Source: Mesoterricola silvestris
GTDB lineage: Bacteria; Acidobacteriota; Holophagae; Holophagales; Holophagaceae
Assembly (NCBI RefSeq): GCF_030295405.1
Contig: NZ_AP027080.1
Span: forward strand, 4,510,001 to 4,574,000
Direction of reading: 5' to 3'
Length of the DNA stretch: 64,000 nucleotides
Shown: piece by piece, positions 6,799 through 63,857 of the stretch
Position numbering within the stretch: the first letter of the stretch is position 1
Layout of the letters: each line of letters opens with the position of its first letter
Translations under genes and position numbers: made by a program
Notes under the pieces: generated by a model
The model's input: only the letters and a program-made list of their open reading frames with translations
Database searches by the model: none
Told to the model about the DNA's origin: nothing

Positions 6799-8238
6799 AT
6801 GGCCACCGACAGCCTCAGGACCTTCCTGGAGATCCCCTACGACACCCTGGAGGAAATGAACCTCCACGCCAAGCAGCAGCGCCTGGACCGGGTGCCCCTG
6901 GAGCAGATCCGCGAGGAGCGCATGGCGTACCTGGCCGGGGAGAAGCGCATCAAGGCCGTGACCGTGGCCTTCACGGACATCGAGGGCCGGCTCCACATGC
7001 TGGACTACGACAAGAAGTACCTCCTCAAGTCCTACGACAACCTCACCTTCGACGGCTCCTCCATCCGCGGGTTCTCGGCCCAGGCCGAGTCCGACCTGCG
7101 CCTCGCCATCGACTGGCCCGCCTTCTACTGGCTGCCCGCGGACATCTTCGGGGCGGGCAAGGTGCTGGTGTTCGGCTTCGTCATGGAGAAGGACGGCACG
7201 CCCTACGCCTCGGATTTCCGGGCCCGGCTGCGGGAGGCCACCGAGACGCTCTACGCCAGGGAAGGCATCGTCATGAACGCGGCCAACGAGATCGAGGGCT
7301 TCCTCTTCAAGGGCCGCGACGCCGAGCGCCACTACCACGAGACCAACGCCTTCGAGTTCATCTCCACCGGCGGCTACTACCACTCCCTGCCCGGGGACAG
7401 CCTGCGGGCCTTCATCGACACCTCGGCCGAGGCCCAGCGGGCCATGGGCTTCTCCAACGAGAAGGACCACCCCGAGGTGGCCCCCTCCCAGTTCGAGATG
7501 AACTACAAGTACGCCGAACTGAACGTCGCCGCCGACCAGGTGCAGCTGTACAAGCTCCTGGCGCGCCAGGTGGCGGCCCAGATGGGCCTCACCGCCTCCT
7601 TCCTGCCCAAGCCCGTGGCCGGCGTGAACGGCAACGGCATGCACACGAACATCTCCGCCAACAAGGACGGGAAGAACCTCTACTTCGACGCCAAGGGCCG
7701 GGACGGCCTCTCCGCCAAGGCCTGGGATTTCCTCAACCGCATCCTGGCCAACGCCGCCGAGCTCTGCCTGGTCCTCAACCCCAGCGTCAACGCCTACCGC
7801 CGCCTGGATCCCCACTTCGAGGCCCCCAACCAGATCAAGGTCTCCCCCACGGACCGCGGCTCCATGATCCGCATCCCCCTGGGCAACGAACAGTCCGCGC
7901 GCATCGAGGTGCGGTCGGTGGGCCCCGACGCGAACCCCTACATGCTCTACTACGCCCTCCTGAAGACCGGCCTGGAGGGCCCCTCCGGCGAGCCCGAGGA
8001 CACCACCAAGCGCCCCCGCACCCGCTTCCTTCCCGACAACATCTTCGACGCCATCCGCCTCTTCAAGGGCTCCCGGTTCCTGGCCGACGCCCTGGGCGAG
8101 GACATCCACGCCAAGTTCGCCGAGGTCAAGCTCCTCCAGGCCGAGCGTTGCCCCAAGGCCCTGGGCGCCATCGTGAAGGCCTGCGAGATCCAGTTCCACC
8201 ATGAGGTAACCAACCAGCTGCTCTGGAACCAGTTCTAG
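6799..8238 (+). CDS. glnA: Type I glutamine synthetase
   Basis: Glutamine synthetase (479 aa) making glutamine from glutamate, ammonia and ATP. The catalytic blocks are recognisable: DGSSIRGF, NEIEGFLF (metal Glu), PEVAPSQFEMNYKYAE, NGNGMHTNIS, NPSVNAYRRL and APNQIKVSPTDRGS followed by ARIEVR. The adenylylation segment around Tyr397 of enteric GlnA (NLYxLPPEE type) is not present; RTRFLPDNIFDAIRLF stands there. Adenylylation by GlnE is therefore unlikely. GGAG lies upstream of the ATG and a good promoter precedes it. It is followed by hairpin repeats rather than by glnB or ntrBC. Confidence 0.93.
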   Translation: MATDSLRTFLEIPYDTLEEMNLHAKQQRLDRVPLEQIREERMAYLAGEKRIKAVTVAFTDIEGRLHMLDYDKKYLLKSYDNLTFDGSSIRGFSAQAESDLRLAIDWPAFYWLPADIFGAGKVLVFGFVMEKDGTPYASDFRARLREATETLYAREGIVMNAANEIEGFLFKGRDAERHYHETNAFEFISTGGYYHSLPGDSLRAFIDTSAEAQRAMGFSNEKDHPEVAPSQFEMNYKYAELNVAADQVQLYKLLARQVAAQMGLTASFLPKPVAGVNGNGMHTNISANKDGKNLYFDAKGRDGLSAKAWDFLNRILANAAELCLVLNPSVNAYRRLDPHFEAPNQIKVSPTDRGSMIRIPLGNEQSARIEVRSVGPDANPYMLYYALLKTGLEGPSGEPEDTTKRPRTRFLPDNIFDAIRLFKGSRFLADALGEDIHAKFAEVKLLQAERCPKALGAIVKACEIQFHHEVTNQLLWNQF

Positions 8239-8348
8239 GCCTCGGTCTTCCCGTCCGTCCCCGCCGGGGGCTCCAGATCGCTAGGGGGAGGTTCCAGGGG
8301 AGGACCCCGACCCACCTGGGTTCCAACGAAACGCCCCGACCCATCGAT

Positions 8349-8378
8349 AGCGCGAGCAGCATGACTGCTGCTCGCGCT
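8349..8378. repeat. 13-bp stem hairpin, relative of the REP-like family
   Basis: Arms AGCGCGAGCAGCA and TGCTGCTCGCGCT with a 4-base loop TGAC. It lies in the 355-bp gap between the convergent glnA and fucose-isomerase-like genes. The gap has no gene; it holds this hairpin and the one at 8465-8496. The pair may terminate transcription from both sides. Confidence 0.6.
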
Positions 8379-8464
8379 TTCCGTTGTCCATTGCCCATGG
8401 GGAATCGGGGAAGTGGGATGCCCTTGGACCTCAGGACCCACCCATCCCCTGCCTGGATACGGCA

Positions 8465-8496
8465 GAGCGCTCGCAGCATGCTTGCTGCGAGCGCTC
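8465..8496. repeat. REP-like palindrome, copy A
   Basis: A perfect 14-bp stem starting GAGCGCTCGCAGCA, loop TGCT, followed by CACGGTGGGTCGG and preceded by CCTGGATACGGCA. The same flanks recur at 17619-17643 (copy B) and 20465-20491 (copy C), which defines a small dispersed family near gene 3' ends. Confidence 0.65.
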
Positions 8497-8593
8497 ACGG
8501 TGGGTCGGCGGATGATGTTGGAACACCGTTGTGACGGTACCCCCCCGGGGAACTGGGCACATCAAACCCGCGGCCACCGGCAGGGGCGCCCGT

Positions 8594-9802
8594 TCAGGCC
8601 GGAACGCACAGGCTGTGGTACTCCCGCAGCCGCGCCTCCCAGTGGCCGGGGACGAGGACGTGGTGGTTGCCCATGGGGTTCTCGAGGAGCGGGGCCACGG
8701 ATCCCTGGAGGCGCACCTGGACCTGGGTGCGGCAGCGCTGGGGGGAGTCACCGTTGGCCAGGAGCTCCCCGTCCGAGACGAAGAGGCCGCGCAGGGCGGG
8801 GCCGCCGATGCGGGCGAGGGTGACGGGGCCTTCGGGCAGGGTTCCCTGGATGCCCACGCCCAGGCCGGATTCGAAGTGGGAGCGGAGGGCGTAGCTCCGC
8901 ACCAGGCTCCGGGGCACGGTGCAGTGGGCCAGCCACAGGGTGGAGGTCGCCGGGTCCAGGTCCTGGGGGTTGGCCATGAAGCTGGCGCCGCCGCTCACGG
9001 CCTGCATCCAGAGCATGGTGAGGGCCGCGGGCACGTCGCCCTCGCAGCCCGCCACGATGCCCTGGTCCAGCAGGGCCGACAGGGCGAGGCAGCCCGTGGT
9101 GGCCAGCTCCTTGACCAGGTCGAAGCAGCGCACGCTGCAGGCATCCAGGTCGTAGGCCCTCACCACGGCCCGGAGGCCCGCCCCGACCCGGGCGGCCAGG
9201 TCCAGGTCCGCGGCGCCGGGCTCCAGGATGCCGGAGGCGCCTCCGCAGAAGTCCCGGCGCAGGGCTTCGGCCTCCTCCGGGTCCGCGTCCCGGATGGCTT
9301 CGCGCACGGCCTCCAGGGGCACGTCGACGATCTGGGGGCCCCAGGCCTCGGCCACCCGGGCCGCATCGGGCATGCTCCCCACGAGCCAGTCGGAAGGGGC
9401 CCCGATGCGCCCCAGGCGCGTGGCCCTCAGCTGCGCCCGCACCGCGAGGTGGTCCGCCACCCGGGCCAGGGCGGCGTAGCCCTCCTCCCCGTCGTTGAGC
9501 AGGAGGATCCGCCCGGGGCGCCCCTCCTGACGGAGCCGGCAGAGCACCTCCATGGCCGCGGGCAGGGAGTTCTGCCGGGGGTGGGCCAGGAGCAGGACCG
9601 GCCCCTCCTGGCCCTCCAGGGCCTCCAGGGCCAGGTGCTCCGTTCCGCCGGTGACGATGAGCAGCGCCGCGGCCTCCCCCGGGGAGGTGAGCATGCGGTG
9701 GACGATGCCCCGGGCCTCCAGGGCGGCCCCGAGGGCGGCGACGGTCTCCCGCACCTGGGCGGCGGAATGGAAGGCGGATGCGAGTGGAAGGATCGTGAGC
9801 AT
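8594..9802 (-). CDS. L-fucose isomerase-like sugar isomerase family protein
   Basis: A 402-residue protein resembling the L-fucose/L-arabinose isomerase family. The diagnostic region is VRCFDLVKELATTGCLAL, then a DQGIVAGCEGDVPAALTM segment and later TLWLAHCTVP, matching the ACEGDxxxxxTM and HC pattern of family active sites. It is shorter than E. coli FucI (about 590 aa), so the sugar substrate is uncertain. The ATG at 9802 starts MLTILPLASAF; upstream codons are not coding-like. It follows the Crp-family gene by 44 bp and is probably the last gene of the iorAB operon, an odd place for a sugar isomerase. A metal-dependent isomerase of another substrate is possible. Confidence 0.6.
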   Translation of the reverse strand: MLTILPLASAFHSAAQVRETVAALGAALEARGIVHRMLTSPGEAAALLIVTGGTEHLALEALEGQEGPVLLLAHPRQNSLPAAMEVLCRLRQEGRPGRILLLNDGEEGYAALARVADHLAVRAQLRATRLGRIGAPSDWLVGSMPDAARVAEAWGPQIVDVPLEAVREAIRDADPEEAEALRRDFCGGASGILEPGAADLDLAARVGAGLRAVVRAYDLDACSVRCFDLVKELATTGCLALSALLDQGIVAGCEGDVPAALTMLWMQAVSGGASFMANPQDLDPATSTLWLAHCTVPRSLVRSYALRSHFESGLGVGIQGTLPEGPVTLARIGGPALRGLFVSDGELLANGDSPQRCRTQVQVRLQGSVAPLLENPMGNHHVLVPGHWEARLREYHSLCVPA

Positions 9803-62324: not shown

Positions 62325-62424
62325 GGCCTGGGTCGTGTCTCCATGGCGATTCTCGTAGTGCTTGCGTTCATGAAATAGCTCTCCGTGTGGGTGGGGGGGG
62401 TGGCTTGCCTTTTCAAAGGGTGTT

Positions 62425-62489
62425 ACTATCAAACTGATATGAACTCTACTCCCCTCCCGAAGGTGTGTCACTACCAAAATGATATGAAC
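62425..62489 (+). promoter_or_regulatory. Two 20-bp direct repeats at the HxlR start
   Basis: ACTATCAAACTGATATGAAC (62425-62444) and ACTACCAAAATGATATGAAC (62470-62489) match at 18 of 20 positions, 45 bp apart. The first contains the palindrome TATCA-AAC-TGATA. Each copy contains an in-frame ATG. They are probable HxlR operators overlapping its own start. Confidence 0.6.
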
Positions 62490-62927
62490 AACAAAAATTG
62501 CCCTCCCGACCCCTGCCCCATCGCCCGGAGCGTGTCCTTTGCCGGCGACGCGTGGTGCCTTCTCATCCTGCGGGACGCCCATGCCGGCCTCACGCGCTTC
62601 GACCAATTCCGGAAGAGCCTGGGCATTGCGCCGACGATGCTGACCCGGCGCCTGGCGACCTTGACCGAGGAGGGATTGCTTGAAAAGAGGCGCTACTCGG
62701 AGCACCCACCGCGAGAGGAGTATCTGTTGACCGCTGCCGGCCGCGATTTTCTGCCGGTGCTGTTCATGATTGGCGAATGGGGGCGCAAATACAGGGGTGG
62801 CGGCAAGTTGATTCGATTTCTGGATGGTGAGACGGGGACGGAAATCAAGGCCGTCGCCGTGGATGAAGTCACCGGAGCGAAGATCGGGACCCGCGCGATC
62901 CGCATGTCCACGCCGGACGCGGACTAG
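62484..62927 (+). CDS. HxlR-family transcriptional regulator
   Basis: Winged-helix regulator of 147 aa. The family opening CPIARSVSFAGDAWCLLILRDAHAGLTRFDQFRKSL, then GIAPTMLTRRLATLTEEGLLEKRRYSEHPPREEYLLT fits HxlR exactly: the Cys in NCPPDPC is often redox-active. Start is ambiguous: ATG 62484 or, 45 bp earlier and in frame, ATG 62439, each lying in one of the tandem repeats. It is divergent from the oxidoreductase gene. The stop codon TAG lies in the CTAG that begins the inverted-repeat element at 62924. Confidence 0.9.
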   Translation: MNNKNCPPDPCPIARSVSFAGDAWCLLILRDAHAGLTRFDQFRKSLGIAPTMLTRRLATLTEEGLLEKRRYSEHPPREEYLLTAAGRDFLPVLFMIGEWGRKYRGGGKLIRFLDGETGTEIKAVAVDEVTGAKIGTRAIRMSTPDAD

Positions 62928-63450
62928 GAACCCGGCTACCCAATCGCACGTGTCCCGGACGTTCGCCCCGGTTCGTTGCTGCGGGCCAAGCCCGCAGCAA
63001 CGGAAGGCTCTCACCCCATGGTTGGGCCTGTGTTTCCACCCATTGGCCCCGACCCACCTCAGGGCCTCTCTTCGAGTGCTGCGAGGAGGGCATTGGGCCG
63101 CGCCAACGCCAATTAGCAAAGCGACCTCGTCTCGAACCGGGCCTTCGGCAGGTCCGGGTTCGAGCTGACTTCAAAGGCGTGTGGGCGGTGCACACCAATC
63201 AGCGTCGGCGCCCATCGGCACCGAGAGGGCCATCGCGAAGCAAACCCACAAACTCAAAGGAGCCGCTCTCCTCGCCTGGGCCTTCCAGGAGAGCCATTCC
63301 CTTCCGAATTCCCTTCTGCTCAACGAAGTGAGTTGGGCGTAGCACTGCCCCAACGTCGCTTCCGCACCCCCCGTCATCGCCGGCTTGGCCGGCGATGACG
63401 AAACAGGGCGAACGTCTGGGACACGTACGATTACGTAGCCGGGCTCCTAG
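62924..63450. mobile_element. MITE-like non-coding element with 50-bp inverted repeats and paired subterminal hairpins
   Basis: Terminal repeats 62924-62973 and 63401-63450 are inverse copies at about 43 of 50 positions and both begin CTAGGA read inward. Directly inside each lies a hairpin with 13-bp arms and a 3-base loop (62974-63002, loop CAA; 63372-63400, loop TTG). Read on the same strand the two stems share layout and loop but differ by paired base changes. The 369-bp centre has a further stem near 63131-63164 and no convincing gene. CTAG at both ends could be a 4-bp target duplication. The ends supply TAG stop codons to both convergent neighbours. No transposase is present. Confidence 0.65.
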
Positions 63451-63857
63451 CTTCTGAGCTGCGAAAGGACGCCGGCCAGGGTGTTGATGCCCCAGTGCTC
63501 GACATACCGCCCATCCTGGATGCGAACGATGTCGATGACATCGATGGTTACGGGGCGCCCCGTCGCCTCGATGCCCATCAGCGTTCCGGCATGGGTGCCG
63601 CTGACCGTCTTCCGGGTGGTGACCAGGTCACCTTCGGCTATCTGGGAATGGATCGTCACCTCCAATCCGGCCAGGGCCGGGCGAAGCACGTTCTGGAACG
63701 TGCTCCACATGCTTTCAGGACCGTTGGGCATGCCCTGAGGTGCGGACCGGTTCACGAAATCCGCGTCCATGAGGGCTTCGAAGGCGCGCCGGTCTCCCTT
63801 GACGATCACCTCCTCGTTGAATCGGCGAACGACGGCCTTGTTGGTTTCGTGGGACAC
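63447..63857 (-). CDS. SnoaL-like (NTF2-fold) protein
   Basis: A 136-residue protein of the SnoaL/ester-cyclase-like NTF2 superfamily. Features: NKAVVRRFNEEVIVKGDRRAFEALMDADFVNRSA at the N-terminus, then GLEVTIHSQIAEGDLVTTRKTVSGTHAG and DIVRIQDGRYVEHWGINTL. Such small alpha+beta barrels include polyketide cyclases and many proteins of unknown role. No polyketide genes are near. It is convergent with HxlR across the 62924-63450 element; its TAG stop lies within the element's terminal CTAG. Probably part of the acquired block. Confidence 0.85.
   Translation of the reverse strand: MSHETNKAVVRRFNEEVIVKGDRRAFEALMDADFVNRSAPQGMPNGPESMWSTFQNVLRPALAGLEVTIHSQIAEGDLVTTRKTVSGTHAGTLMGIEATGRPVTIDVIDIVRIQDGRYVEHWGINTLAGVLSQLRS

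Follow-up and report, generated by a model that had tools for sequence, protein, structure and literature searches.

A dispersed 527-bp inverted-repeat element of Mesoterricola silvestris, probably a large fold-back MITE placed at CTAG stop codons

A spacer between two convergent genes of Mesoterricola silvestris (Holophagaceae, Acidobacteriota) holds one copy of what we consider likely to be a non-autonomous fold-back MITE-like element of this Holophagaceae genus, mobilised in trans at CTAG and carrying hairpins that act at mRNA 3' ends. Copies are dispersed through the genome, orthologous sites in sister species lack the element, its ends lie at CTAG and at TAG stops, its copies have no ORF in common, and its hairpins are conserved, hairpin 1 with covariation; each of these points was observed directly. 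The window, the 64-kb stretch of DNA analysed here, covers bases 4510001-4574000 of the single-contig 4.99-Mb genome (G000). Within it, a non-coding stretch of 527 bp (62924..63450) separates an HxlR-family regulator gene on the plus strand (62484..62927; start inferred by our own gene caller, the longest ORF beginning at 62385) from a SnoaL-like gene of the polyketide-cyclase fold on the minus strand (63447..63857). A preliminary description, made from this one copy, had stated that the CTAG at each end supplies the stop of the adjoining gene. This is so: the left CTAG (62924..62927) contains the TAG with which the HxlR-like gene ends at 62927, and the right CTAG (63447..63450) the TAG with which the SnoaL-like gene ends at 63447. 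From the comparison with element-free sites described below, we read both as target duplications.

The left terminal inverted repeat arm (62924..62995, plus strand) overlaps hairpin 1 and pairs with the right arm (63379..63450, minus strand), which overlaps hairpin 2, over 72 nt at 82 per cent; terminal inverted repeats are present in all full copies. A direct count over the outer 50 bp gave 43/50, exactly the value first estimated. The two hairpins of equal geometry were likewise as described, hairpin 1 at 62974..63002 with loop CAA and hairpin 2 at 63372..63400 with loop TTG, each having perfect 13-bp arms and a 3-nt loop. Only ten perfect hairpins with arms of at least 10 bp occur within the window, and these are two of them. 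RNA folding of the element was far stronger than in shuffled sequences on both strands (z = -11.5 for plus, z = -12.8 for minus; 0/100 shuffles as good). A conserved interior core, with consensus TCACCCATTGGCCCCGACCC, lies at 63036..63055 (plus strand). The longest open frames vary in frame and length among the eleven young copies, so there is no common ORF and no coding capacity.

Searching the genome with the 527-bp sequence returned eleven near-full-length copies at 85-93 per cent identity, together with several internally deleted copies and many at 68-82 per cent. A profile and two motif searches brought the family to about sixty places in its own genome, fragments included. The preliminary description had allowed for there being no other copies anywhere; the whole-genome search clearly disposes of this, with many copies and element-free sites. 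Allowing at most one mismatch, the core motif occurs at thirty-five places in this genome and at none in seventy-six other genomes of Holophagaceae. Five congeneric genomes were compared for relatives of the element, and four of them contain only end sequences, short palindromes of 60-130 bp, a solo hairpin, or one full-length relative; the sole full-length diverged relative among them is locus L062 in genome G005. A wider scan of genome contigs gave no match with the core motif and, with the terminal pattern, one true relative, in Holophagaceae bacterium UBA692. Five further terminal-pattern matches from these contigs were rejected, as they are embedded in what looks like coding sequence and bears no resemblance to the element. 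Viral contigs and plasmids gave no match to the element. The young copies differ by 7-10 per cent, which counts against demonstrated current activity. One copy, L055, is chimeric, with a left half of type 1 and a right half of type 2 (the two sequence types are described below), and points to recombination between copies. No earlier description of the family was found in the literature searched, and the repeats of Holophagaceae appear to have been little studied. Another intergenic repeat of the same genome (L051, L058, L060, L078) has TTCATCC-type tracts around CTGTTCCCGCAGGGCCAG and its inverse. A second convergent spacer in the window (8238-8594) has two related perfect hairpins (8349-8378 and 8465-8496) and a CTAG stop at 8235, and is possibly another element of like sort.

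We used the joined flanks of seven copies to find orthologous gene pairs in sister species. Four copies, that of the window not among them, have an element-free orthologous site, and the element therefore moves. G002 lacks the element at the L033, L031, and L026 sites, while the L038 site in G003 reads GCCTAGCTAGTACC, with both target copies adjacent; this may be a footprint of excision or a doublet of ancestral origin. Element-free orthologous sites hold a single CTAG or a TTAG within overlapping stops, and at the empty L031 site the convergent genes overlap in their stop codons (TTTAGG). Joining the window flanks without the element gives GCGGACTAGCTTCTGAG. The duplicated targets read CTAG/CTAG at the window copy, L031, and L032, and TTAG/TTAG at L030; many copies have one terminal CTAG lost or altered. 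The duplication may be 4 bp long, as the TTAG at both ends of L030 would indicate, or may consist of the TA in CTAG, as in L037 (CTAG/CTAC), and the two are hard to tell apart because the ends are symmetric. A MITE with CTAG target duplication was among the initial proposals for this locus, and it is supported by the copies, the element-free sites, the CTAG/TTAG ends, and a resident IS5-type IS that duplicates CTAG. In G002 and G005, the gene junction corresponding to L038 (L118, L119) carries, after CTAG and in the same convergent spacer, a two-gene module that by eye resembles BrnT/BrnA toxin-antitoxin.

The element is found mainly between convergent genes and beside TAG stops. Gene calls came from a simple codon-usage caller and comparison pairs from the window and the regions around copies, so the following numbers are approximate: thirty-one of forty-nine element-bearing gene pairs are convergent and only two divergent, compared with 20/164 convergent among pairs without an element (Fisher p = 6e-12); of the stops lying no more than 6 bp from an element end, 37 are TAG, 8 TAA, and 2 TGA (elsewhere 70, 22, and 94), a TAG share of 37/47 versus 70/186 (p = 5e-7). 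Copies are located at CTAG or TTAG, mostly where the tetranucleotide was a stop codon. CTAG itself is depleted about ninefold in the window, with 21 occurrences against 187 expected from base composition. Nine of these are stop codons and ten fall elsewhere between genes; the genes themselves contain just two, although 88 per cent of the sequence is coding. Since CTAG is rare and mostly found in stops and intergenic DNA, insertion takes place at gene ends without breaking genes, and CTAG targeting suffices to account for the location at the 3' ends of convergent genes. An element can thus reach tens of copies in an 88 per cent coding genome and leave it undamaged, because its target word is depleted in genes and largely confined to stop codons and spacers.

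We propose the following course of events. A DDE transposase supplied in trans would act on ends of the form CTAG-GAGCCYGGCTACGTAATCG... and insert the element at CTAG/YTAR, duplicating the target (CTAG, or TA inside CTAG). Insertions would fall at gene ends, especially at a CTAG common to the overlapping stops of convergent genes, and the duplication would then leave each gene with its own CTAG stop, as in the window. After insertion, the hairpins would persist as the remainder decays. Transcribed from either flanking gene, they would serve as 3'-end hairpins that protect the mRNA and keep convergent transcripts apart, and not as U-tract terminators; a role at mRNA 3' ends is probable. A more ambitious version makes the element a mobile 3'-end module. 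It would pick the CTAG stops that overlapping convergent genes share, move the two genes apart with both stops restored, and leave hairpins that the host then maintains by selection at individual sites, where they form a barrier that holds convergent transcripts apart. We think this version rather unlikely.

Much of this depends on the hairpins. Covariation was assessed on a twenty-six-copy alignment, in which double-sided changes affect 6/14 pairs of hairpin 1, 1/12 of the almost invariant hairpin 2, and 1/13 of the terminal stem. The covariation score was 0.073 versus 0.042 in shuffles (0/500 as high), a value inflated by relatedness since these copies are paralogues within one genome. For a fold of the whole element, RNAalifold gave a negligible covariation term. 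Paired changes had been claimed from a comparison of the window copy's own two hairpins, which cannot demonstrate them; across copies such changes do occur in hairpin 1, while hairpin 2 scarcely varies in sequence. A second sequence type, represented by L072 and L075, by L062 in G005, and by short forms in G002 and G005, has near-perfect palindromes as arms and a different hairpin sequence, with pairing kept in 99 per cent of cells (nine sequences, three genomes). Among diverged copies, the frequency of non-majority bases per site is 0.02-0.06 for hairpin arms, rising to 0.14-0.16 for terminal repeats and to 0.20-0.28 for spacers. Mobility alone would favour ends that are conserved best, whereas here the hairpins are better conserved, which suggests that they have a role at the insertion site. 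That they outlive the rest of the element suggests a concrete one, at mRNA 3' ends.

The same observations might be read as a bidirectional terminator or structured RNA that the host keeps at convergent gene ends, its copying being incidental. The convergent bias of element-bearing gene pairs, the conservation of old copies' hairpins far beyond that of their terminal repeats, and the survival of hairpin 1 pairing through double changes are all consistent with such an RNA, but the position is already explained by CTAG targeting, and sister species have the orthologous gene pairs without any copy of the element. In its classical form, the bidirectional terminator suggested in the preliminary description is unsupported, as neither strand has a GC hairpin followed by a T-run (0 U-tract terminators found). 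A structured RNA comprising the whole element fares no better: Rfam matches are all below the gathering score, and the interior is without a conserved fold, the left and right interior blocks of type 1 pairing with the partners of other copies as well as with their own. We regard maintenance by the host as a rather unlikely primary explanation. Perfect hairpins might also arise without selection, from template-switch correction of quasi-palindromes during replication. Compensated changes in hairpins with short loops, along with the failure of type 1 copies to keep their long-range interior stems, speak for this process. It is nevertheless an unlikely explanation overall, leaving unaccounted for a hairpin 2 sequence that is near-invariant in copies 20-30 per cent diverged elsewhere; template switching could contribute to the paired changes and not to this near-constancy.

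Among the DDE_Tnp_1 and DDE_3 matches in the genus, we found no transposase gene flanked by long ends like those of the MITE-like element that we favour. Two copies of one 1.5-kb IS5-type IS are resident in G000 (L128:1067-2564 and L129:1067-2564), with a two-frame transposase, CTAG duplication, and ends GGGGCTGTCGGCAAACC. The earlier remark that the CTAG ends would suit target duplication of IS5 or IS701 type is borne out to the extent that an IS5-type IS is present and duplicates CTAG, but it and the element share only about the first six end bases (GGRGCY). Several other ISs of the genus duplicate CTAG or YTAR, and the IS5-type copy at L128 is itself located in a CTAG that adjoins a second, roughly 271-bp MITE. 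This IS also carries a passenger ORF that by eye resembles GxxExxY proteins. IS load is very uneven within the genus, with seventy-three DDE_Tnp_1 matches in the sister genome G001 and two in the window's genome. Two end-like matches, at 1637400 and 1640072, were considered as the ends of an autonomous element and rejected: they share the same strand, and no transposase was seen among the intervening ORFs.

Other types of transposase would have to be reconciled with the genome's contents. Were the element a MITE moved by an IS630/Tc1-type enzyme, TA would be duplicated within CTAG, and IS630-type ISs of G005 do sit at CTAG in 6/6 copies with both ends read, and several of these abut ends of the 527-bp family or the 271-bp MITE. 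Against this, the element's own genome has no DDE_3 (PF13358) match, IS630 ends (GTGTAGGCCGCC) are unlike those of the element, and L030 has TTAG on both sides, making an IS630-type mover improbable. The IS630-type ISs found at CTAG in G005 are L175 and L180-L184, and CTAG is thus a landing site common to several elements. Far less probable still is mobilisation by a Y1 tyrosine transposase, either a RAYT or a TIRYT, which would make the element one of REP/BIME type or TIR type. As with REPs, the family is palindromic and intergenic, located near 3' ends and between convergent genes, and TIRYTs with long TIRs have been reported from other Acidobacteria (PMC3733652). However, Y1_Tnp (PF01797) has no match in the genome, with control genomes positive, which largely refutes this mechanism unless the enzyme was recently lost. 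In addition, the element is 527 bp long where 20-40 bp would be expected, the CGTC at the base of hairpin 2 lies within the stem, paired, and so leaves no unpaired tag, and CTAG stands at both ends with target duplication. Given the absence of Y1 and IS630 enzymes, the CTAG-duplicating ISs, and the second MITE, a CTAG-specific DDE enzyme is the best candidate for the transposition system. We infer such a transposase, acting in trans, to be the mover, and its identity likewise.

Like the bacterial MITEs RUP, NEMIS/Correia, ERIC, and Nezha, the element is non-coding, intergenic, and multi-copy, with TIRs, strong folding, and no transposase of its own. MITEs have been described as 70-300 bp long with TIRs of 15-30 bp (PMC3733652). 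At 527 bp the element exceeds this customary range, and it differs in its 72-bp arms and two interior hairpins; the short relatives in sister species measure 60-130 bp. The size limit is customary and not mechanistic. Since the main features of a MITE are present apart from this size and a proven autonomous partner, we class it as a large fold-back MITE. It is further set apart from known MITEs by a CTAG/YTAR target at stop codons, and is known here from one Holophagaceae genus only.

REP/BIME sequences and their RAYTs offer a second comparison, in that hairpins lie next to 3' ends and REPs, too, favour spacers near 3' ends, whether convergent or co-directional (PMC3733652). The present element is much longer, lacks an unpaired GTAG/CGTC tag, has target duplication, and is found in a genome without a RAYT. 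With the IS5-family insertion sequence at L128 and L129 it has the CTAG duplication in common. That IS is autonomous, 1.5 kb long, and encodes a two-frame transposase; its ends begin GGGGCT versus GGAGCC in the 527-bp element, and the inner TIR is unrelated. A further comparison is with the second MITE (L128:2565-2839 in G000; L141, L150, and L153 in G005), which has perfect ends of about 35 bp and CTAG on both sides. The first 18 bp of its end (GGAGCCTGTCTACGTAAT) are the same as in some copies of the 527-bp family, whereas it is shorter and its interior is different. In G000 and G005 its sequence is almost the same, hence it is more recent, and to judge from this identity it was probably mobile not long ago.
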